From NCBI GenBank assembly GCA_016234855.1, contig JACRNO010000046.1, forward strand, positions 1 to 36,190: a DNA stretch of 36,190 nt, in the 5' to 3' direction. The position numbers were made by a program, and so were the translations under genes. Below the pieces are notes generated by a model. It saw nothing but the letters and a program-made list of their open reading frames with translations. It was not told the DNA's origin and did no database searches. Shown here piece after piece: positions 2,325-18,056 of the stretch. Position 1 is the first letter of the stretch, and every line of letters starts with the position of its first letter. Source of the stretch: Deltaproteobacteria bacterium. GTDB lineage: Bacteria; Desulfobacterota; GWC2-55-46.

Positions 2325-2564
2325 TTACTTGCGCCTTAATTCCTCAAACTCACCCATCGTGATGCCGGCGGCTGACAGTATCGCCTTCAGTGTGCGCCGC
2401 TTGATAACCTTGCCGGCATGAACCGGGACGTTCGTCCTTTTCCTGTCCGATTCCCTGTAATATATCGCGTGGCTGGTTCCCGATTGTCTCTTAAAGAGAA
2501 AACCGGCTTTCTTAAGAATCCTTATGACCTCAGCCGAAGTCGCCGCCGGGAACCTCTTGCTCAT
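2325..2564 (-). CDS. hicA: HicA-type mRNA interferase toxin
   Basis: The ORF track extends far upstream, but the true start is ATG 2564 (MSKRFPAATSAEVIRILKKAGF), giving 79 aa, the usual HicA length. Family features are visible: the N-terminal 'S..EVIRILKKAGF' helix, the GTSHAIY segment carrying the catalytic His, and the VPVHAGKVIKRRTLKAILSAAGIT tail. HicA is a dsRBD-like ribonuclease that degrades mRNA when free of HicB. The start overlaps the hicB stop as ATGA (2561-2564), so the pair is translationally coupled, antitoxin first. It lies between the two fumarate reductase subunit genes, an unusual location for a toxin-antitoxin module. Confidence 0.92.
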   Translation of the reverse strand: MSKRFPAATSAEVIRILKKAGFLFKRQSGTSHAIYYRESDRKRTNVPVHAGKVIKRRTLKAILSAAGITMGEFEELRRK

Positions 2565-2794
2565 ATCGCAACTTTCAGGGTTGTGACAGTGACATGGTCG
2601 TCCGGGACCGGTTCCTTCTCTGCCTTGTAATCCTCGATAAAGGCGTCTATGGCGCTCTTCATCTCCTTGAGCGTCTCCTCGTAGGTCTCGGCTTGGACAT
2701 GACATCCCGGCAATGCAGGACACATGGCAAAATAGCCGCCCTCATCGCAAGGTTCGATTACAACCGTAAAGCTGTGTTCTTTTTTTCTAGCCAT
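2561..2794 (-). CDS. hicB: HicB-type antitoxin
   Basis: This 77-aa protein shows the HicB partial RNase H-like fold: FTVVIEPCDEGGYFAMCPALPGCHVQAETYEETLKEMKSAIDAFIEDYK. The CPALPGC and TYEE..L..... segments are diagnostic. The C-terminus is short (VPDDHVTVTTLKVAI) with no obvious added DNA-binding domain. HicB neutralises HicA by direct binding. A strong GGAGG lies six nt before the ATG. The gene overlaps hicA by four bases. The composition is closer to the host than that of the other two inserted cassettes, so its arrival may be older. Confidence 0.93.
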   Translation of the reverse strand: MARKKEHSFTVVIEPCDEGGYFAMCPALPGCHVQAETYEETLKEMKSAIDAFIEDYKAEKEPVPDDHVTVTTLKVAI

Positions 2795-2821: not shown

Positions 2822-3610
2822 CTACAGCTTCGTCGTGTCCTTGGGCATCCACTTCCCGCTCTCGGCCAGGTCAGGCTCACGCTCGCGCTCGACGTAGAGC
2901 TTCTTGACGTCCTCTTCCTTCATGGTGAGGAGTTCCTTATGCATCTTCTCGTACTTGCCGCTCCTGACCTCTTCAACGCGCTTTGCAAGATGGGCGGCCG
3001 GAGGGAGTATATACCTGCCGAAGAGGCGCCTGACGAACATAGCGGCCGTGAACTGGGATATCTGAGCAGGACAGCGCGAGGCGCAAAGACCGCACATGAC
3101 GCAGTCGAAGCTCTTGTGCGCCGCGCCCTTCAGGTCGCCGCGCTTCATGAGCGCTATATAGTCCATGACGTCTATGTCCATCGGACAGGTGCGCGTGCAC
3201 GTGCCGCAGCCCACGCACTTGAAGACCTCGGGGTAGATGGCGCGCAACTCCTCGTGCGGGTCGCCGGTAATCTTCTCAAGGTCGTAATCCGGCCTGTTGG
3301 ACGGGAAGAACGGCAGCTGCATGATGACCATGTTCGGCTCGGCAACGGTCTGGCACGCAAGACCGGAACGGAGCCTGTAGTCGCCGAGAAAACGGTAGAA
3401 GGTGCCGCACGCCCCGCAGATGCCGCCCCTGCACCCGCAGCCGCGCACATACGCATAACCCGCGTACTCGACGGCCTTCATGATGGTGAGCGTCTCCGGG
3501 ACGATGTACTCTCTGCCCATGATGTAGATGGGTATCATCTTCGCGCCTTCGGGCGGAATGGTGCGGTCTCCGGTCGCCAGCGGTTTCAGCGTTTTTTTCT
3601 CGTCTGCCAT
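2822..3610 (-). CDS. tfrB: Fumarate reductase iron-sulfur subunit, TfrB/SdhB-like
   Basis: Start ATG 3610 (MADEKKTLKP, 262 aa) is preferred over the ORF start at 3691 because AGGAG lies upstream and conserved sequence begins soon after. A ferredoxin-like 2Fe-2S domain occupies about residues 25-95 with Cys58, 60, 65, 68 and 86 (RGCGCRGGICGACG). Two 4Fe-4S motifs follow: CVGCGTCTRTCP near 132 and CVMCGLCASRCP near 170. The protein would carry electrons to the TfrA-like flavoprotein. It has no HdrB-like CCG domain at the C-terminus, unlike methanogen TfrB; a separate HdrB is encoded upstream instead. No membrane anchor subunit is encoded nearby, in agreement with a soluble complex. hicBA separates it from tfrA. 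Confidence 0.85.
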   Translation of the reverse strand: MADEKKTLKPLATGDRTIPPEGAKMIPIYIMGREYIVPETLTIMKAVEYAGYAYVRGCGCRGGICGACGTFYRFLGDYRLRSGLACQTVAEPNMVIMQLPFFPSNRPDYDLEKITGDPHEELRAIYPEVFKCVGCGTCTRTCPMDIDVMDYIALMKRGDLKGAAHKSFDCVMCGLCASRCPAQISQFTAAMFVRRLFGRYILPPAAHLAKRVEEVRSGKYEKMHKELLTMKEEDVKKLYVEREREPDLAESGKWMPKDTTKL

Positions 3611-3799
3611 AGCTCCACTCTCCTGCCCTTCTCGGTTACCTGCGCGGCGCATACCCAAATAATGCCGGCTTGCGTCCGTGCCAACCTTCATCTTATATTA
3701 TATTACAATCAAAAACCGTTATAAACAGATTACATTATTTGTTTTTCGCGGCTCAGACCTTCGATCTCGACTTTACAAACGCGCACATGACCATCTTTT

Positions 3800-3822
3800 T
3801 CAGGGCTGAAGCCCTGAGCTAC
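3800..3822. repeat. Palindrome of the GTAGCTCAG family
   Basis: TCAGGGCTGAAGCCCTGAGCTAC is a single half of the compound repeat described at 6529-6603. It lies in the 302-bp gap between flxA and tfrB, which also holds the flxA-tail remnant (3833-3873) and nothing else recognisable. Confidence 0.75.
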
Positions 3823-3832
3823 TGTAGAGCAG

Positions 3833-3873
3833 TTAAAAATCATTGTACAGCTTCTTTACTTCCGCGGCCGTTT
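3833..3873 (-). pseudogene. Remnant of a duplicated flxA 3' end
   Basis: On the minus strand this stretch reads K-T-A-A-E-V-K-K-L-Y-N-D-F-stop. It is nearly identical to the last residues of the neighbouring FlxA-like protein (T-A-A-E-V-K-K-M-Y-N-D-L-stop, ending at 3913). About 80% of bases match over ~40 nt, with differences mainly at third positions. The reading frame upstream is closed by a stop within a few codons. It therefore looks like the surviving tail of a second, diverged copy, left after deletion or recombination. It is too short for the ORF track. Confidence 0.72.
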
Positions 3874-3912
3874 TTTTTACAATTTGCCTGACCCGCCTCA
3901 ACTTCGATATAT

Positions 3913-4746
3913 CTAAAGATCGTTATACATCTTCTTGACTTCGGCAGCCGTATATACCGGCCCTTCCTTACATATATAGACGTCGCCGACGTTGCATCTG
4001 CCGCACTTACCAACCCCGCACTTCATCTTGTTCTCAAGGGTCGTATAGATGCTCTCATCCGTGAAACCGAGCTTGCCGAGCGCGGCGATGACGTATTTTA
4101 TCATTATAGGAGGCCCGCAGGTCACTGCCACCGCGTTCTTGGCGGACGGGGCGGCCTCTTCAAGCACCATGGGCACGAAACCTACCTTGCCCTTCCAATC
4201 CGGCGTCTGTCCGCCTGGATCTACGGCCTGAATAACCCTTACGTCAGTTCTGTCTTCCCAATGCGCAAGCTCGTTCTTGTAGACAAGGTCGGCGACCGTG
4301 CGCGCGCCGTAGACGATGGTTATCCTGCCGAAGTCTTCGCGCCTGTCGAGGCAGTTCCAGATGACGGAACGCACTGGTGGCAGGCCGATGCCCCCGGCTA
4401 TAAAGACGATGTCCTTGCCCTTCCACTCATCAAGAGGGAATGAGTTGCCGTACGGCCCCCGAAAGCCCATGGTGTCGCCGATGGAAAGCTGAGCGAGCCC
4501 GCCGGTGACCCTGCCGCTCTTCCTGAACGTGCATTGGATGTAGCCCTTGCGCGTTGGCGAGGACGCGATGCAGAACGTGGACTCGCCCTGTCCGAATGCA
4601 GAATAGAGGCCGAACTGGCCGGTCTTGAACTCGAACGAGTCCCGCAAGCCCGCGTCCTTGAACACGAGCCTGAAACTGCGCACGTCCGGCGCCTCTTCGT
4701 AGATATCTTCTATTGTCACCAACTGCGGCAGATATATGTTGTTCAT
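3913..4746 (-). CDS. flxA: FAD/NAD(P)H-binding oxidoreductase subunit, FlxA-like
   Basis: This 277-aa protein belongs to the ferredoxin-NADP reductase/dihydroorotate dehydrogenase electron-transfer family, which also includes sulfite reductase subunit B. An FAD-binding barrel occupies roughly 1-100, followed by the nucleotide-binding domain (DIVFIAGGIGLPPVRSVI). A C-terminal Cys cluster, C243-x4-C-x2-C-x7-C (CGVGKCGRCNVGDVYIC), should hold 2Fe-2S. In FlxABCD-HdrABC complexes this subunit is the NAD(P)H entry point. The adjacent 4Fe-4S proteins, FlxD and HdrABC support that role here. The ATG lacks a Shine-Dalgarno and is preceded by a degenerate heptamer array. A fragment of a second copy of its tail lies just downstream. 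Confidence 0.85.
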   Translation of the reverse strand: MNNIYLPQLVTIEDIYEEAPDVRSFRLVFKDAGLRDSFEFKTGQFGLYSAFGQGESTFCIASSPTRKGYIQCTFRKSGRVTGGLAQLSIGDTMGFRGPYGNSFPLDEWKGKDIVFIAGGIGLPPVRSVIWNCLDRREDFGRITIVYGARTVADLVYKNELAHWEDRTDVRVIQAVDPGGQTPDWKGKVGFVPMVLEEAAPSAKNAVAVTCGPPIMIKYVIAALGKLGFTDESIYTTLENKMKCGVGKCGRCNVGDVYICKEGPVYTAAEVKKMYNDL

Positions 4747-4780: not shown

Positions 4781-4793
4781 AAAAAAACCTATG

Positions 4794-4930
4794 GAAGCTC
4801 TGATTAATTCCGTTTTTGTCATTTCGAGGAGCGCTTTTGCGACGAGAAATCTTGTAACTGTTGATTTTCCTCAGCATAAGATTTCTCGCTGCGCTCGAAA
4901 TGACACTTCAGTATAATTAATCAGAGCTTC
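4794..4930. repeat. 137-bp palindromic (MITE-like) element
   Basis: The left arm starts GAAGCTCTGATTAATT and the right arm ends AATTAATCAGAGCTTC. Inner arms GTCATTTCGAG...GAGAAATCTT and AAGATTTCTCG...CGAAATGAC extend the imperfect inverted repeat to about 50 bp per side. It lies just 3' of the nuclease-like gene (stop at 4946) and upstream of flxA. A second, interrupted copy is at 12131-12346. No protein is encoded. Confidence 0.82.
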
Positions 4931-4945
4931 TCTATATTCTTACGC

Positions 4946-5368
4946 TCAACTATTCGCTTCTAAAAAACGATCCATGGTTTTATTCTTTAAGTTACCGCCA
5001 CTAAAGCGATAAGATTCTTTTTTTATTAAATACCCACTCTTAATCTCTTCACGCGGGATTTTATATCTTGTAATTGTCTTGATGTCCTCTGTCTCCCTAT
5101 ATTTCTTAATATTACAGACTACAAAAAGAAAATCTGCTTTCAGAGGGAATTCCTTGCTAAAATCAAAGTTACTTGAACACGCATCTGGTATGCCACGTTC
5201 TCTTTGGGAGCCTTTCACTTCATAAGTTTCTTTCTTCCCGTTCCTAAAAGTCACTTCATAATCATAGCCAACGCCTTTTTTGCTGACGTCTTCAAAACAT
5301 CCACCATTGTCCTTAACCCATATCTCGAAAAAAATGAGTGCCATTTTTTCTGTGCGCATTTTTTCCAT
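4946..5368 (-). CDS. DUF3883-like (PD-(D/E)XK-type) nuclease-related protein
   Basis: ATG 5368 (MEKMRTEKMALIFFEIW, 140 aa) is chosen because AGAGGA precedes it by five nt. The ORF-track start lies inside the upstream gene. The segment GYDYEVTFRNGKKETYEVKGS matches the pattern of DUF3883 / 'NO VEIN' C-terminal domains, where D, E and K of a D-x-n-(E/V)-V-K core form a restriction-endonuclease-like site. No helicase or methylase is fused or adjacent. The gene is much more AT-rich than the flanking operon genes, lies between the two Flx-like genes and is followed by a palindromic element, all signs of acquisition. The activity is not known. A role in defence is inference. Confidence 0.62.
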   Translation of the reverse strand: MEKMRTEKMALIFFEIWVKDNGGCFEDVSKKGVGYDYEVTFRNGKKETYEVKGSQRERGIPDACSSNFDFSKEFPLKADFLFVVCNIKKYRETEDIKTITRYKIPREEIKSGYLIKKESYRFSGGNLKNKTMDRFLEANS

Positions 5369-5409
5369 TTGTTTCCTCTGATAACGAATTGTTGTTAAGC
5401 GCGTTCGTA

Positions 5410-6426
5410 TTACTTTGACAATGCCTCCATCGCCTCGGTTATATCCAGCCTTACGGGACATACGCGTATACACCTTCCGCACCCGACGCATCCCGTTGAC
5501 TTGAACTTCTCAGGATAGAAGTTGAACTTGCACATGAAGCGGTTGCGCCATCTCTTCCACTGCACGTCCCTTGGATTGTGCCCGCTCGCGTGCAGGGTGA
5601 ACATGTCAATCTGGCAGGCGTCCCAGTTCTTGCGCCGCTCTCCCTCGAAGGCCGTGCCCTCGTCTATGATATCGAAGCAATGGCAGGTCGGGCAGACGTA
5701 CGTGCACGCGCCGCAACCGATGCATTTGCGCGTCAGCTCGGCCCATATCGGGTCTTCGTAATGGCCCCGGTCTTTCAACCGGCCGCCTATCCTCGCAAGG
5801 TCGATGCCTTCTATCGGAGCCGGGTTATAAAGCGTGACCGCATCCGTGTCCGCCGATTGAGCGCCAAAGACAACCTCGTGCGCCGCGACAAAGGCCTTGC
5901 CTTTGTCCGTCACGCTATGGACGAGCCAGCCGCCCTTTGTAGTCTCGTAGAGCATGATGTCGGAGCCTGCCACGGATTCAGGCGACAGGCCGACGGTAGT
6001 GCAAAAACATGCGTCGTCGCCATTCGTGCAGGCAACGGAGATGACCACCGTCTTGTCCTCGCGCTTGGTGTAGAACTCGTCAACAAAGTCCCATGTAAAG
6101 ACCGAACGGAGCGACGCGACCGATGCCGCCTCGCACGGACGGCCGCCGAAGACCACGGTATCAACGGCCTTGACATCCCTTGCGCGAAGCTCTACCCCGT
6201 CCTTACGGATACTGAAGTCGGCCACGACCTCGGTCTGCGGGAAGAGAAACTCCTTAAAAGAGTTGCGCGCGAGTATGTAGCCGGTCGCAACCTCGTCCGC
6301 CGTTATAACCTCTTTAAAAACGGTCTGACGCGCCACGGTCGCGGGCGCAATAAACCTGCCGCCCTTGCCAATAACGGAAGAGATGAGTTTCGCAAGCCCG
6401 TCTTTATCTAAGTATCTATCTGCCAT
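5410..6426 (-). CDS. 4Fe-4S oxidoreductase subunit, FlxB / anaerobic sulfite reductase A-like
   Basis: This 338-aa soluble protein has a ~220-residue N-terminal domain of the AsrA/hydrogenase beta-like type (ADRYLDKDGLAKLISSVIG... FIAPA). Two C-terminal 4Fe-4S motifs follow: CIGCGACTYVCPTCHCFD and GCVGCGRCIRVCPVRLD. Family members pair with an FAD/NAD(P)H subunit like the neighbour flxA and relay electrons. In Flx-Hdr clusters this corresponds to one of the two Fe-S subunits; assigning B rather than C is uncertain. The ATG at 6426 lacks a Shine-Dalgarno and is preceded by the heptamer array. A nuclease-like cassette separates it from flxA. Confidence 0.8.
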   Translation of the reverse strand: MADRYLDKDGLAKLISSVIGKGGRFIAPATVARQTVFKEVITADEVATGYILARNSFKEFLFPQTEVVADFSIRKDGVELRARDVKAVDTVVFGGRPCEAASVASLRSVFTWDFVDEFYTKREDKTVVISVACTNGDDACFCTTVGLSPESVAGSDIMLYETTKGGWLVHSVTDKGKAFVAAHEVVFGAQSADTDAVTLYNPAPIEGIDLARIGGRLKDRGHYEDPIWAELTRKCIGCGACTYVCPTCHCFDIIDEGTAFEGERRKNWDACQIDMFTLHASGHNPRDVQWKRWRNRFMCKFNFYPEKFKSTGCVGCGRCIRVCPVRLDITEAMEALSK

Positions 6427-6528: not shown

Positions 6529-6603
6529 GTAGCTCAGACCTTCAGGTCTGATTGTTGTCAGCGCCTACGGAAAGGCCATCTCAGGGCTAAAGCCCTGAGC
6601 TAC
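6529..6603. repeat. Compound palindromic repeat (GTAGCTCAG ... CTGAGCTAC)
   Basis: Two palindromes (CAGACCTTCAGGTCTG and TCAGGGCTAAAGCCCTGA) are separated by about 35 bp. They are bounded outside by inverted GTAGCTCAG and CTGAGCTAC. Whole or partial copies recur at 3800, 18817, 23331, 26739, 31157 and 31368. The organisation resembles BIME-type REP doublets. No coding capacity. Confidence 0.8.
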
Positions 6604-6612
6604 TTTCAGGAT

Positions 6613-6641
6613 GATTTGCAACGGCTACGCCGTTGTAAATC
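6613..6641. terminator. Hairpin overlapping the end of the Fe-S gene
   Basis: GATTTGCAACGGC-TAC-GCCGTTGTAAATC forms a 13-bp stem with one mismatch and overlaps the stop codon at 6640-6642. There is no T-run, so attenuation or transcript-end protection is as likely as termination. Confidence 0.45.
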
Positions 6642-7533
6642 ACTTTATAAAATCGTCCTTGTCATCCGGCTTGAATACTATCATCGGCGGATGGGTCTTC
6701 TCATCGTAGCCGGACTTGAACTCAAACGCCGAGTCCACCACCTGTATCATCTTCTGGTTCACGAGATTGAGAGGGATATTCACCGGGCACGCCCGCTCGC
6801 ACTCGCCGCAAAATGTGCAGCGTCCCACAAGGTGCATTGCGCGCGTAAGATTCCACGATAGGTTGCCGCGCGGATGCGCGCTCGTCTCTATCCACTGCGG
6901 CATGTTCTTCTCCGTGATGCAACGCTCGCAATAACAGAGCGAGCAAACCTGACGGCACGCGTAACACTTGATACAGCGCGAGAACTCGCCAACCCAGAAG
7001 TTCCAACGCTCTGAGGCGTCCATCGCGTCTATGGCCTTTATCTTATCGAAGACCATGCCGGTCGGCGTCTCCGGCGGCGTAAACGTCGAGCGCTCGCCGA
7101 TTGTAAAATCGCTCACGTGCGGGTTCCTCACGTCGCAGTTGTGGCACTTGGTCGGCATCATCTCAGGCTTCAGCCCGCCCTTCCACAACTCCTGCCTGTA
7201 GACGACGCCCTCGCAAGTCATGCCGATTATCACCGCGTCTTCGCGCTTTATCTGCGCTTCGGTTATAAGGACGACGATATTCCTGATATCGCAGCCCTTG
7301 GCAACTATGGCGGGCTTGCCAAGCGCCAGGATGTCCTTGAACTTACGCGTCAGATAAATGGAGAGGTTGTTGACGCACAGCGGGTTCCAGACGAGCTTGT
7401 CCACGTCAGCCGGTCTCGTAATGAATACCGGTGTGGTGCGCGTCTTCGCCCTATTCCAGCCATAGCCGATGACGACCTTTACGTCGCCGGACTCAAGGAG
7501 CTCTTTTGCTTTTTGTCTTAATGCATTTTCCAT
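6640..7533 (-). CDS. 4Fe-4S electron-transfer protein, FlxC / FrhB-like
   Basis: This 297-aa protein has an N-terminal domain reminiscent of F420-dehydrogenase/hydrogenase beta family proteins (VKVVIGYGWNR..., PAIVAKGCDIRNIVVLITEAQI, IIGMTCEGV). A Cys-rich CHNCDVRNPHVSDF segment is followed by two clusters: CIKCYACRQVCSLCYCERC and CTFCGECERACPVNIPLN. It should relay electrons between the NAD(P)H subunit and the HdrA/FlxD side. It follows a PNPOx-like gene by seven nt, so the two are probably co-translated. Which Flx letter it matches is uncertain. Confidence 0.77.
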   Translation of the reverse strand: MENALRQKAKELLESGDVKVVIGYGWNRAKTRTTPVFITRPADVDKLVWNPLCVNNLSIYLTRKFKDILALGKPAIVAKGCDIRNIVVLITEAQIKREDAVIIGMTCEGVVYRQELWKGGLKPEMMPTKCHNCDVRNPHVSDFTIGERSTFTPPETPTGMVFDKIKAIDAMDASERWNFWVGEFSRCIKCYACRQVCSLCYCERCITEKNMPQWIETSAHPRGNLSWNLTRAMHLVGRCTFCGECERACPVNIPLNLVNQKMIQVVDSAFEFKSGYDEKTHPPMIVFKPDDKDDFIK

Positions 7534-8006: not shown

Positions 8007-8252
8007 CTACGCCACCTTAAAACTCTTTCCAACGGCCTTCAAACCTCTTACGTTCTCACTTTTGAGTTTTTCCCGTATCACTTCAAACCTCTTGACAATA
8101 TCCGGGGCATAAAGCCTTTCGCCGCACCGAAGACACACTTCTGCCTTAACCTTTATTGATGCCGTATTATTGCCCCCGCGAAGCAGCTTCTCGACGTTTT
8201 TACTTAATACCTCGCCCCCGCATACAGGGCATTTCGGGAAAAGAATCTTCAT
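8007..8252 (-). CDS. YgiT-type zinc-finger protein (MqsA-N-like antitoxin)
   Basis: ATG 8252 (MKILFPKCPVCGGEVLSKNVEKLLRGGNN, 81 aa) overlaps the upstream stop as ATGA and follows AGGAGG with five-nt spacing. Zn ligands CPVCG and CLRCGERLY and the following helix (PDIVKRFEVIREKL) match YgiT-type domains, the N-terminal half of MqsA antitoxins. These commonly pair with DUF4258 or MqsR-like toxins, as here. The pair is AT-rich compared with the flanking flxD and PNPOx genes and interrupts the operon. Confidence 0.85.
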   Translation of the reverse strand: MKILFPKCPVCGGEVLSKNVEKLLRGGNNTASIKVKAEVCLRCGERLYAPDIVKRFEVIREKLKSENVRGLKAVGKSFKVA

Positions 8253-8560
8253 TTTTTCCTCCTCTTCCATCCAATCCACTTACCAGGCTCCGGCCTGTAA
8301 ACGGTTATCAAGACGCTTGCGCCTGTTTCTTTATTGCAAGCCCATACGCTGTGAATAGGCTCGCTTTTGTAATTTTCCCCGTATATCAAACAACTCGGAT
8401 AGGGGTTGTCATCCGGATAACTTTCAATTACTATTCCGTTTAACACCGACGTGAAGATTTCATCAAACGTCAAGCCGTCATTATGAGCCTCTTCGTCCGC
8501 ATGGTCGGTTATACGAATTTTCCCGTTCCTTATGCTTTCGATTATCTCGTCTATAGTCAT
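8249..8560 (-). CDS. DUF4258 protein, putative toxin of a DUF4258/YgiT pair
   Basis: This 103-aa protein shows the DUF4258 layout: KIRITDHADEEAHNDGLTFDEIFTSVLNG, then PYPSCLIYG, then ASVLITVYRPEPGKWIGWKRRKK. The family resembles RelE/MqsR-type RNase toxins. The gene comes first and overlaps the zinc-finger antitoxin gene by four bases, the same toxin-first order as mqsRA. Its Shine-Dalgarno is weak. Toxic activity is inferred from family and context only. Confidence 0.78.
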   Translation of the reverse strand: MTIDEIIESIRNGKIRITDHADEEAHNDGLTFDEIFTSVLNGIVIESYPDDNPYPSCLIYGENYKSEPIHSVWACNKETGASVLITVYRPEPGKWIGWKRRKK

Positions 8561-8581: not shown

Positions 8582-9046
8582 CTACTTCAGCCCCTTATAC
8601 TCCATGAACGGGCCAAGGTTCTTTATCTCGTCGGTGACGTTGTTTATCAGGTCAACCCACTTTATCGCCTCCGACGCTGAGACCCATGAAAAATGGAGCC
8701 TCCGCATGTCGATGCCCGCGAACTCGAGGAGTTTTTTAAAGCCTATCCAACGCCGTCTGGCGTGATAGTTGCCTGTAGTATAATGACAATCGCCCGGATG
8801 GCAGCCTGAAACCAAAACGCCGTCGGCCCCGTTCTCGAACGCCTTAATGATGAAGAGCGGGTCTATCCTGCCCGTGCACGGCAGTTTTATTATGCGCACG
8901 TTCGGCCTGTACTCCATGCGCGAGGTTCCGGCAAGGTCCGCGCCCGCGTACGTGCACCAGTTGCAGACGAAGGCCATGATTTTCGGCTCGAATGCGCCAG
9001 ACTGCGTAGTCCCGGAATGGCCTGTCGTATCGGTATGTCCGCTCAT
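8582..9046 (-). CDS. flxD: MvhD/FlxD-type 2Fe-2S electron-transfer subunit for HdrA
   Basis: This 154-aa protein matches the MvhD (F420-non-reducing hydrogenase delta) family: IMAFVCNWCTYAGADLAGTSRMEYRPNVRIIKLPCTGRIDPLFIIKAFENGADGVLVSGCHPGDCHY. Conserved Cys residues (CNWC, LPC, GCHPGDC) bind a 2Fe-2S cluster. The subunit links an input module (hydrogenase, formate dehydrogenase or Flx) to HdrA. With no hydrogenase nearby and an FlxA-like NAD(P)H subunit in the operon, FlxD is the best reading. A 25-residue Ser/Thr/Gly N-terminal extension is unusual. A MITE-like element separates it from hdrA. Confidence 0.88.
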   Translation of the reverse strand: MSGHTDTTGHSGTTQSGAFEPKIMAFVCNWCTYAGADLAGTSRMEYRPNVRIIKLPCTGRIDPLFIIKAFENGADGVLVSGCHPGDCHYTTGNYHARRRWIGFKKLLEFAGIDMRRLHFSWVSASEAIKWVDLINNVTDEIKNLGPFMEYKGLK

Positions 9047-9231: not shown

Positions 9232-11205
9232 TTAGAATGCGGCCAACGCCGCAAACACCTGCTCGTCCGTATACCCCTTGAGATCAATCGACTTGCTCCT
9301 GCACGCGGCCACGCAGACCCCGCATCCCTGACAGACGCCCTCGTTCACCTTTGCAAGAAGCCTTACGACCTCGCCCTGCCTGTTCTTTACCGCGTCTCTT
9401 TCTATCGCGGAGTATGGACACGCGGTCACACAATCCCAGCATGCGTTGCAAGTGACCTTGTTCACAAGCGCGGTTATCGGCTCGCGGGTCATCTCGTTTG
9501 CGGAAAAGAGCGCCAAGACCTTTGACGCGGTGGCAGAGCCCTGCGCAACCGAATCCGGTATGTCCATCGGCCCCATGCATGTTCCGGCAAGGAATATACC
9601 GGCGGTTACCGTCTCAACCGGACGGAGCTTCGGGTGGTACTCGTTATAGAATTTATACTTGTCATAGCCGATGCCGAGCTTCTGCGCAAGGCTGTCCGCG
9701 CCCGGGCGCGATACCAGGGCCGTGGCCATGACAACCATGTCCGCCTCTATCTCGACCTGCGAGTTACTGAGGGTATCCGCGCCCTGGACGATAATCCTGC
9801 CATCCTTCTCATATACACGCGAGACGCGGCCGCGCAGATACATTGCGCCGTCGTGCTCTATCGCGCGCCTTACGAACTCTTCATAGCGCTTGCCCGCGCA
9901 GCGTATGTCCATGTAGAAGACATACGACTTACCGCCGTGCACCTTGTGGTTGTAGAGCATCGTATGCTTGGCCGTATACATGCAGCATACCTTCGAGCAG
10001 TAGGAAACGCCCTTCTGCTCGTCCCTTGAGCCGACGCACTGGATGAATACGATGCTCTGCGGGACCTTGCCGTCCGACGGCCTCCTTATCTCTCCGCCGG
10101 TCGGGCCGGACGAGGAGGCAAGCCTCTCAAACTGCATCCCGTTTATAACGTCCTTTATCCTGCCGTAACCGTACTCGCCGAAGCGCTCGTTGGGCATCAG
10201 GTCGTAGCCGGTCGCGACGATTATCGCGCCAAACTCCTCGGTGACAATCTTGTCTTCCTGCTTGAAGTCTATGCACTTGGGGCCGCATACAACGGCGCAC
10301 GCCCCGCACTTGTCCTTCTGAATCTTGGGACAATTGGGCGCGTCGATTACCGGTATGTTCGGCACGGACTGCGGAAACGGCGTGTAGATAATCTTGCGCT
10401 TTGCAAGCCCGAGCTCGAACTTGCTCTCGGCATTGAACGGGCATTTTTCGATGCACTCGCCGCAGCCGGTGCAGCGGTCTTCATCCACGTAACGCGCCTT
10501 CTTGCGTATCTGCACGGTAAAATTGCCGATGTATCCGTCTACCTTCTCGACCTCTGAATAGGTATAGAGCTTGATATTCTCGTTCAGCTCTGCCTCGACC
10601 ATCTTCGGCGTAAGTATGCACTGCGAGCAGTCCATCGTGGGGAAGGTCTCGGAAAGACGCGCCATGTTGCCGCCTATGGAAGGCTCGCGCTCCACGAGCA
10701 CGACCTCGATGCCGCCCTCGGCAATATCAAGCGCGGCCTGTATGCCTGCTATGCCGCCGCCGATGACCAAGGCGCGCTTCTTTATCGGTATCTTGATCTT
10801 ATTGAGCGGCTGGTTGCGCTTGAGCCTCTCGAGCGTCATGCGGGTAAGGTCGGTTGACTTTACCGTGCCCACGGCCCTGGTCTTGTCGTGATGCACCCAC
10901 GAGCACTGCTCGCGTATATTCGTTATCTCGACCCTGTAAGGGTTCAACCCGGCGGCCTCGCCCGCCTTTCTGAAGGTCTTCTCGTGCATGTGCGGGGAGC
11001 AGGCCGCTACTATGATGCTGTCGAGCTTGTTATCCTTGATCGTCTGCTTGAGCATCTCCTGGCCCGGAGACGAGCACATGAACTTGTAGTCGCACGTGTA
11101 TACGACGCCGGGGAGTTTTAACATTTCCTCGGCGACCTTTTTTGTATCGACCGTCGCGGCGATGTTATTGCCGCACTGACATACGAAGACACCTATGCGT
11201 GGCAT
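9232..11205 (-). CDS. hdrA: Heterodisulfide reductase subunit A (HdrA)
   Basis: This 657-aa flavoprotein is the core of Hdr-type, potentially electron-bifurcating complexes. Visible features are an N-terminal Cys domain (CQCGNNI, CSSPGQ), a Rossmann FAD motif VIGGGIAGIQAALD near 148-160, the TMDCSQCILTPKM Cys motif near 190-200, 4Fe-4S motifs near 245-256 (CTGCGECIEKCP) and 296-310 (CGACAVVCGPKC), and two C-terminal ferredoxin motifs (CNACWDCVTACP, CQGCGVCVAACR). No in-frame TGA/selenocysteine is needed. It sits between flxD and hdrB as in known hdr/flx loci. In such complexes HdrA splits electrons from NAD(P)H between ferredoxin and a second acceptor; whether it bifurcates here is inference. 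Confidence 0.95.
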   Translation of the reverse strand: MPRIGVFVCQCGNNIAATVDTKKVAEEMLKLPGVVYTCDYKFMCSSPGQEMLKQTIKDNKLDSIIVAACSPHMHEKTFRKAGEAAGLNPYRVEITNIREQCSWVHHDKTRAVGTVKSTDLTRMTLERLKRNQPLNKIKIPIKKRALVIGGGIAGIQAALDIAEGGIEVVLVEREPSIGGNMARLSETFPTMDCSQCILTPKMVEAELNENIKLYTYSEVEKVDGYIGNFTVQIRKKARYVDEDRCTGCGECIEKCPFNAESKFELGLAKRKIIYTPFPQSVPNIPVIDAPNCPKIQKDKCGACAVVCGPKCIDFKQEDKIVTEEFGAIIVATGYDLMPNERFGEYGYGRIKDVINGMQFERLASSSGPTGGEIRRPSDGKVPQSIVFIQCVGSRDEQKGVSYCSKVCCMYTAKHTMLYNHKVHGGKSYVFYMDIRCAGKRYEEFVRRAIEHDGAMYLRGRVSRVYEKDGRIIVQGADTLSNSQVEIEADMVVMATALVSRPGADSLAQKLGIGYDKYKFYNEYHPKLRPVETVTAGIFLAGTCMGPMDIPDSVAQGSATASKVLALFSANEMTREPITALVNKVTCNACWDCVTACPYSAIERDAVKNRQGEVVRLLAKVNEGVCQGCGVCVAACRSKSIDLKGYTDEQVFAALAAF

Positions 11206-11226: not shown

Positions 11227-12096
11227 TCAGGCCAAACCCTTCTTCTTCAAAAGCGGCATAGCGTCCCAGACGTTCTTTTCAAAACCGAGCGTCTCAACCG
11301 GCTGGCCAAGGGCCAGGCCGAGGAGCTGCGTGAAATAGATTATCGGCATTGGCTTGTAATCGCCTGTGGCCGAGGCGAGCGCGGTCTGACTCTGCTCAAG
11401 GTTATACTGACAGAGCGGACAGGACGTGACGATTATCTCGGCCCCGTTGTCCGCCGCGGACGTCATTACGTTACCCGAAAGTTTCGTTACAAGCCCGGTG
11501 TTGCTCATGGCAAGGTGCGCGCCGCAGCACTCGATCTTATTTGGAAACTCCACAGGTTCCGCGCCCACGGCCTTGAGCATATCCTCGAATATGACAGGCC
11601 TTTCCGAATCGTCGATGCCCCTGTCCTCGAACGGCCTCAGGAGCATGCAACCGTAATACGCCCCCGTCTTCAAACCCGTAAGCGGTTTCTTTACAGCGGC
11701 CTTTACCTTGTCAAAGCCGACCTTGTCGCGCAGTATCTCCAGATAATGGATGATGCTGAGGCTGCCGTCATACTCTTCGTTTATAAAACCGTTTATGACG
11801 CTGCGCTTTTCCTTGTCGCCCTTCATCACGGCGTTGGTGCGCTTGAGGACGTTGTAGCAGACCGAACAGAGCGTCGTCAGCTCTTCGCCGCCCTTGCGCG
11901 CGTTGGCCAATACCTTGGCAGGCGCGCTCAAGGCGATAAGGTTATCCGGCGAGAGCGGAAAGGTCGCGCCGCAGCAGTTCCACTGCGCCAACTCCTCCAT
12001 CTCAAAGCCGACGGAGCGTGCGGACGCCCTTGCCGAAAGGTCGAAGCCTTTGGATACGGTATTTAAAGTACAGCCTGGATAATAGGGTATCTTCAT
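11227..12096 (-). CDS. hdrB: Heterodisulfide reductase subunit B (HdrB)
   Basis: ATG 12096 (MKIPYYPGCTLNTVSKGFD, 289 aa) is chosen. The longer ORF-track start lies in a repeat. Two CCG domains are visible: WNCCGATFPLS with CSVCYNVL, and IECCGAHLAMSN with CPLCQYNLE. In methanogen HdrB these bind two non-cubane 4Fe-4S clusters at the disulfide-reducing site. In bacteria the physiological substrate is usually unknown; DsrC-like or other thiol acceptors have been proposed for Flx-Hdr. It is followed by hdrA 21 nt downstream. A 277-bp repeat-filled gap separates it from hdrC. Confidence 0.93.
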   Translation of the reverse strand: MKIPYYPGCTLNTVSKGFDLSARASARSVGFEMEELAQWNCCGATFPLSPDNLIALSAPAKVLANARKGGEELTTLCSVCYNVLKRTNAVMKGDKEKRSVINGFINEEYDGSLSIIHYLEILRDKVGFDKVKAAVKKPLTGLKTGAYYGCMLLRPFEDRGIDDSERPVIFEDMLKAVGAEPVEFPNKIECCGAHLAMSNTGLVTKLSGNVMTSAADNGAEIIVTSCPLCQYNLEQSQTALASATGDYKPMPIIYFTQLLGLALGQPVETLGFEKNVWDAMPLLKKKGLA

Positions 12097-12130
12097 AGAT
12101 TCCGTGAACCGTGACTGTGTAAAAGAACCA

Positions 12131-12346
12131 AGCAAGCTCTGATCAAGGAAACCCTGATTTATTAAACTGAATTGTCATTTCGAGCGAAGCGAGAAATCTT
12201 GTTTTTAAATAATTCAGTAAGTTACAAGATTTCTCGTCGCTTGTGCGCTCGTGTGCGCTAACGTTATGTCTTCGGCGCAACGTTGTGCTTTGGCGCCAAA
12301 AGCGCTCCTCGGAAATGACAGACATAGGAATTAATCATAGTTTCCA
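12131..12346. repeat. Second copy of the 137-bp palindromic element, interrupted
   Basis: The 277-bp gap between hdrC and hdrB holds arms AGCTCTGAT...GTCATTTCGAGCG...GAGAAATCTTG and CAAGATTTCTCGTCGC...AGCGCTCCTCGGAAATGAC...AATTAATCA. They align to the element at 4794-4930. The right arm is split after CGTCGC by a 56-57-bp insert (12242-12297). Confidence 0.78.
12242..12297. mobile_element. 56-bp mini-element inserted in a palindromic repeat (copy 1)
   Basis: The sequence starts TGTGCGCTCGTGTGCGCTAA and ends with GGCGCC, with an internal ~19-bp tandem (GCGCNAACGTTRTG...TTGGCGC). Removing it restores the uninterrupted arm seen at 4822-4857 (reverse complement CGTCGC joined to AAAAGCGCTCC). A closely similar 57-bp copy is at 31295-31351. 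No flanking duplication is obvious. Confidence 0.65.
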
Positions 12347-17961: not shown

Positions 17962-18054
17962 GAAGACATTTATCGCGTTCGTTACCACCTCGCACGAACG
18001 TGAGAAATGGCTTTAGACGAGTTCAACGCGGTATAAAGACATTTATCGCGTTCG
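17962..18054. repeat. MITE-like hairpin element abutting the glnB stop codon
   Basis: Three arms of one motif are visible: GACATTTATCGCGTTCG at ~17965-17981, CGAACGTGAGAAATGGCTTT at 17995-18014, and GGTATAAAGACATTTATCGC up to 18054. The first two can form a ~15-bp imperfect stem. It is related to the element at 9112-9230 and, like it, sits within 1-2 nt of a stop codon (glnB, 18057). Confidence 0.7.
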
Positions 18055-18056
18055 TC

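Follow-up and report, generated by a model that had tools for sequence, protein, structure and literature searches.

Why should the end of a gene occur again behind a single complete copy of that gene? This question is raised by the flxA locus of an uncultured deltaproteobacterium (genome of 2.3 Mb in 95 contigs), which we have analyzed within a stretch of DNA of 36,190 nucleotides (hereafter, the window) that corresponds to the complete contig C43. The intact flxA gene (3913-4746, minus strand) encodes a protein of 277 aa with FAD/NAD-binding and DHODB-type Fe-S domains (Pfam matches NAD_binding_1 and DHODB_Fe-S_bind), whose C-terminus is TAAEVKKMYNDL*. The gene name was chosen because of an Hdr-Flx-type synteny, the NCBIfam matches of the protein being to AsrB/HydG-like families and below the cut-offs of those families. 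Upstream of flxA, and also on the minus strand, Pfam matches identify HdrA/HdrB-like, FlpD/MvhD-like, and other iron-sulphur ORFs (9232-11205, 11227-12135, 8582-9046, 6640-7533, and 5410-6426), which together with flxA have the make-up of an Hdr-Flx cluster. The next cluster gene downstream of flxA (2822-3610, minus strand) encodes an SdhB/TfrB-like iron-sulphur (FeS) protein with 4Fe-4S dicluster Pfam matches, and its orthologues come after flxA in the relatives as well. Of 59 related genomes, 49 have a FlxA match at E<=1e-60, the best one (88%) being that of G001, which is the sole further genome of this genus. The ending DL* is found in the window protein alone, all close relatives ending in DF*. 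The window genome contains no second FlxA orthologue, its other FlxA-like proteins being paralogues at 29-35% only.

The second flxA 3' end, named T2, occupies positions 3833-3871 of the minus strand and encodes TAAEVKKLYNDF* in 13 codons (39 nt including the TAA stop: ACG GCC GCG GAA GTA AAG AAG CTG TAC AAT GAT TTT TAA). It is separated from the flxA stop codon by a 41-nt spacer with an A-run at its end (spacer A, 3872-3912, minus strand), and the two ends lie 80 nt apart, start to start. A local alignment of the last 120 nt of flxA with the 302-nt region downstream reached a score of 41, the 99% level of the shuffles being 26, and an nhmmer profile built from the flxA ends of 37 other species, leaving out the window and G001, found T2 at E=1.9e-11; in the reversed-sequence control, the best match of this profile had only E=2.9. 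Thus, a chance match is ruled out by both methods. T2 and the last 13 codons of flxA are identical at 31 of 39 nt, the 8 differences being 6 third-position and 2 first-position changes. When a profile of 153 nt was used, the match began at the same codon as with the shorter one, so no recognisable flxA sequence exists upstream of 3871 and 13 codons are all that is left; an extension of T2 upstream into the spacer had no profile support. A preliminary description of this DNA, made from the letters only, had seen here a second flxA tail that differs mostly at synonymous sites and lacks the rest of the gene, and these results confirm the observation; of the coordinates that it gave (3833-3873), the start was exact and the end has to be moved to 3871. 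The translation of T2 by read-through or frameshift was also discarded, as there is no good start codon and the read-through frame is not conserved between the spacer of the window (41 nt) and that of G001 (40 nt). A scan for downstream repeats over the 122 ORFs of the window retrieved a comparable repeat only for flxA and for two overlapping ORFs of the glnB-glnA region, which are probably non-genic.

The tail is not restricted to this genome, since G001 has one at the same place. The layout in G001 is flxA, spacer, and tail as in the window, the tail being split by a high-copy MITE of 210 bp (L181:4885-5022 and L180). Once the MITE and one TA are removed, the sequence reads ACC GCA GCC GGG ATT AAA AAG ATG TAT AAC GAC TTT TAA, i.e., TAAGIKKMYNDF-stop, located 40 nt past the flxA stop and recognized by nhmmer at E=1.2e-10. 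The spacers of both genomes are homologous, as none of 5000 shuffles gave a pairwise alignment as good when the A-run was held fixed. The MITE has inverted ends TTGAnnnCTGTAnAAGTAATGCAA and a TA target duplication, and it is present in about 14 near-full copies in G001 and in several in the window genome (copies L186-L205). Because two other G001 copies that we have checked sit between TA dinucleotides, the empty-site reading of the G001 tail is sound. The G001 contig carrying flxA (C92) ends, and the contig carrying the next gene (C9) begins, inside this same repeated element, with 63 nt in common. This overlap alone would be insufficient to join them because the MITE is repeated, and we infer their adjacency from the restored 13-codon frame together with the gene order. 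Many G001 contigs end in the MITE, so this assembly is broken by it. The window genome, being a MAG in 95 contigs, might in principle carry a chimeric join of flxA ends from two strains, but the same arrangement in a separately assembled genome of another species makes such an assembly or binning artefact barely credible.

The comparison with relatives covered about 39 distinct gaps between flxA and the next gene in genomes belonging to the same class, and most of these gaps measure 10-60 nt. A second flxA end was found in two of them, those of the window and of G001, and no flxA tail was present downstream of flxA in the ~37 other regions of the class. The preliminary description had proposed to look for relatives with tandem flxA genes; none of the 59 genomes, with their about 39 distinct flxA-FeS gaps, carries two intact copies at the locus. 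In G003, from another genus, the sequence AAATTGTATAATGATTTA just past the flxA stop (L009) resembles the last flxA codons over a 13-nt match (p=0.01 uncorrected; profile E=1). We regard it as a weak candidate for a tail copy, and it could have arisen by a very short tandem duplication or simply represent a -10 box. Another candidate, L057, was rejected: it stood out in a single control test (p=0/60), yet had no profile match.

The position shared by both species implies that the T2 locus predates their split. Differences spread over all codon positions would be expected if T2 had been junk since then. Between the two tails there are 12 differences, and 9 of these fall on third positions; since they lie mainly at such positions, the T2 sequence should have been coding until recently. 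In simulations, so few amino-acid changes over the 39 nt were obtained with p~0.001 if both tails had been neutral since the split, and with p~0.5 if both had been coding. The same measure, again over 39 nt, gave p~0.02 for the 8 differences between the window T2 and its own flxA when one copy was coding and the other neutral. The window T2 is no nearer to its own flxA than to others (median of 7 differences, nearest 5), and the G001 tail has 5 differences from its own gene. From its sequence, T2 appears to have been still a coding stretch when it and the present flxA drifted apart. The initial idea of a former duplicate or a foreign allele is thereby kept as far as an flxA 3' end that diverged while apparently coding is concerned, and set aside as regards a simple recent tandem duplicate. 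When the distances among the four sequences were summed, the pairing of gene and tail within species gave 13 vs 21 and 21 for the other two pairings (codon bootstrap 0.998), a result carried by three informative sites, possibly parallel changes, with synonymous sites near saturation. A renewal of the tails from functional flxA ends, either through conversion by the resident gene or through exchange with relatives, is the most likely way to reconcile an old locus with a recently coding sequence.

We give a probability of about 0.5 to the reading that T2 is the relic of a displaced flxA allele that was later renewed by recombination with functional flxA ends. In the ancestor of the genus, an flxA gene with its own downstream piece (spacer A) would have been placed directly before the final 13 codons of a resident, older flxA, of which everything else would have been lost. 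As the break point is common to both known species, the join predates the species split; its age is thus shown by position, and the displacement event itself is what we infer. Afterwards, as the coding-like divergence suggests, T2 would have been renewed in G001 by recombination with the cell's own flxA, and in the window either from its own flxA long ago or from the allele of a related genome. This reading draws on 39 nt in two species, and no intermediate with two intact flxA genes was seen among the genomes examined.

It is also possible, though we consider it doubtful, that no displaced or foreign allele ever took part, and that slippage or unequal exchange copied the flxA 3' end with some downstream sequence, later slippage between the 80-bp-spaced repeats homogenising the tail ever since. 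Such a local partial tandem duplication would account for a short repeat lying near its source, for a homology that ends sharply at 13 codons, and for a G001 tail to which no flxA is nearer than its own (5 differences); the possible 13-nt repeat after the G003 flxA stop (p=0.01 uncorrected) and another direct repeat of 20 nt in the glnB-glnA gap of the window also speak for it. However, T2 is not followed by a second spacer, which a repeated unit of tail and spacer would require, and the window tail has too much of a coding character to be a neutral copy of its own gene (p~0.02) and is no nearer to its own flxA than to those of other genera.

After a xenologous displacement, the resident flxA would be expected to group away from its congener, unlike the neighbouring genes. 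The FeS protein tree groups the window and G001 in one clade (SH-aLRT 87), the FlxA tree does not resolve the pair, and the identity of the window FlxA is 88% to G001 vs 87% to other genera. The two trees show no strong conflict, and a foreign allele is neither proved nor excluded by them. The proposed history resembles the xenologous gene displacement in situ described for operons, in which another allele takes the place of a resident gene, sometimes leaving a fragment of the latter behind. Unlike in those cases, the fragment at flxA is limited to the last 13 codons and has one break point common to two species, and the trees do not prove a foreign origin.

The icd/icdC locus of Escherichia coli with the prophage e14 also combines an intact gene with a displaced, synonymously diverged 3' end nearby, and flxA and T2 share these traits. 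By analogy, an integrative element could have entered the 3' end of flxA, bringing a new end and displacing the old one, and then have been lost. The fixed 13-codon boundary in two species, a displaced end that would have been coding until the insertion, and a window flxA end (NDL*) unlike that of all close relatives would fit such an attachment-site scar. In contrast to icd/e14, no element, integrase, or att structure was found at the flxA locus, and the 302-nt gap is free of integrase or element remnants; among the relatives, an element between two flxA ends was not seen, not even where the gaps measure 260-660 nt, and the spacer length is nearly equal in both species. The attachment-site origin is thus disfavoured, and we consider it quite unlikely.

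A third parallel is the concerted evolution of short direct repeats, in which copies are closer within species than across, as the flxA end and the tail are, although the flxA case is seen on 39 nt and in two species only. As to the join itself, homology-facilitated illegitimate recombination, which relies on homology for one end of the incoming DNA and joins the opposite end at a non-homologous point, is a documented route to one-sided joins (PMC3240628), and it could have given a 3' join of the T2 type. Altogether, the flxA case works like an in-place displacement, or like a partial duplication, with later recombination between short repeats. Our literature searches found no description of a case such as flxA and T2. 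The flxA scar would be of a known kind, and the combination of an old position with a young sequence is what makes it unusual. If T2 is the relic of a displaced allele, it records on a small scale how one allele replaced another in an operon of energy metabolism; the common break point and the coding-like divergence suggest that the position of a gene scar can be old while its sequence is young, which is a trap when events are dated by their remnants.

The palindrome that had been noticed just downstream of the tail does exist (REP-like, CAGGGCTGAAGCCCTG, 3801-3816), but the connection with T2 was not sustained. It is a dispersed repeat with two further copies in the window, at 6582 and 18823, and many in the window genome (G000) and in G004, and it was therefore ruled out as the cause of T2, being probably an unrelated insertion. 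The repeat (TAGCTCAGGGCTNNAGCCCTGA) is found in high copy at many loci of G000 and G004 (e.g., L112, L117-L129), in tandem clusters in G004, and G000 also has genes of the Y1_Tnp family (REP-associated transposase-like).

Between T2 and the iron-sulphur gene, there is a putative third, decayed flxA end (T3, 3709-3723, minus strand; TAT AAC GGT TTT TGA, i.e., YNGF*), homologous to the stretch GGAATCAAAAGGATTTATAACGGG of G001. Taken alone, T3 of the window is not significant. The G001 stretch matches the flxA ends of other genera at 18/20 positions (0/400 shuffles for the best reference) and the flxA-end profile at nhmmer E=0.059. The alignment shows that both genomes have TTTATAACGG...TATAAT directly upstream of the iron-sulphur gene. 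A consensus scan found there a promoter-like site, TTTATA-17-TATAAT (3697-3725, minus strand; 10/12), with its -35 box in T3, also readable in the G001 sequence, which we propose as a candidate promoter of the downstream iron-sulphur gene on sequence grounds. In several genera, the distance from the flxA Tyr-Asn codons to a TATAAT is 20-23 nt, about the same spacing as at T3. We regard T3 as probably an flxA end of greater age, now overlapping a promoter-like site, and it would probably be what remains of an end that predates T2 at the original junction of flxA and the iron-sulphur gene.

This overlap could mean that the last flxA codons contain promoter elements of the next gene, so that an flxA end must stay close whenever the gene is displaced, and T2 would be a functional remnant. 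The site over T3, readable in G001, and the TATAAT placed ~20 nt past the YN codons in several other genera point in this direction, but they fit T3 and not T2, whose third positions vary freely and for which the consensus scan gave no promoter match on the gene strand. We find this explanation of T2 hard to accept, and no function of T2 could be shown. In a broader and somewhat less improbable, still speculative form, the flxA 3' codons would also serve as part of the promoter of the gene that follows, and each displacement would leave an flxA end behind, giving a stack of ends, the oldest nearest to the next gene and the younger still renewed by recombination with the working flxA.

Other features were observed in and around the cluster. 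A HicA toxin/HicB-like antitoxin pair (2325-2794, minus strand) lies between the iron-sulphur gene and an SdhA-like gene, and G001 has a long gap at the matching position too. Inside the Hdr-Flx cluster, a DUF4258 protein beside a weakly MqsA-like zinc-ribbon protein (8007-8560, minus strand) likely forms a toxin-antitoxin pair. Between flxB and flxA, there is an ORF of 154-181 aa (4946-5410, its start perhaps as far as 5491, minus strand) without counterpart in the other genomes of the order (48 searched); it weakly resembles the C-terminal domain of NO VEIN (E=0.014), contains a YEVKG motif, and possibly encodes a restriction-endonuclease-like protein. The flxB-flxA gap also holds a MITE-like element (4791-4928) with inverted ends GAAGCTCTGATTAAT/ATTAATCAGAGCTTC. 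Finally, the direct repeat of the glnB-glnA intergenic region, ACGAACGCGATAAATGTCTT, is located at about 17962-17983 and 18036-18056, its copies being ~74 nt apart.
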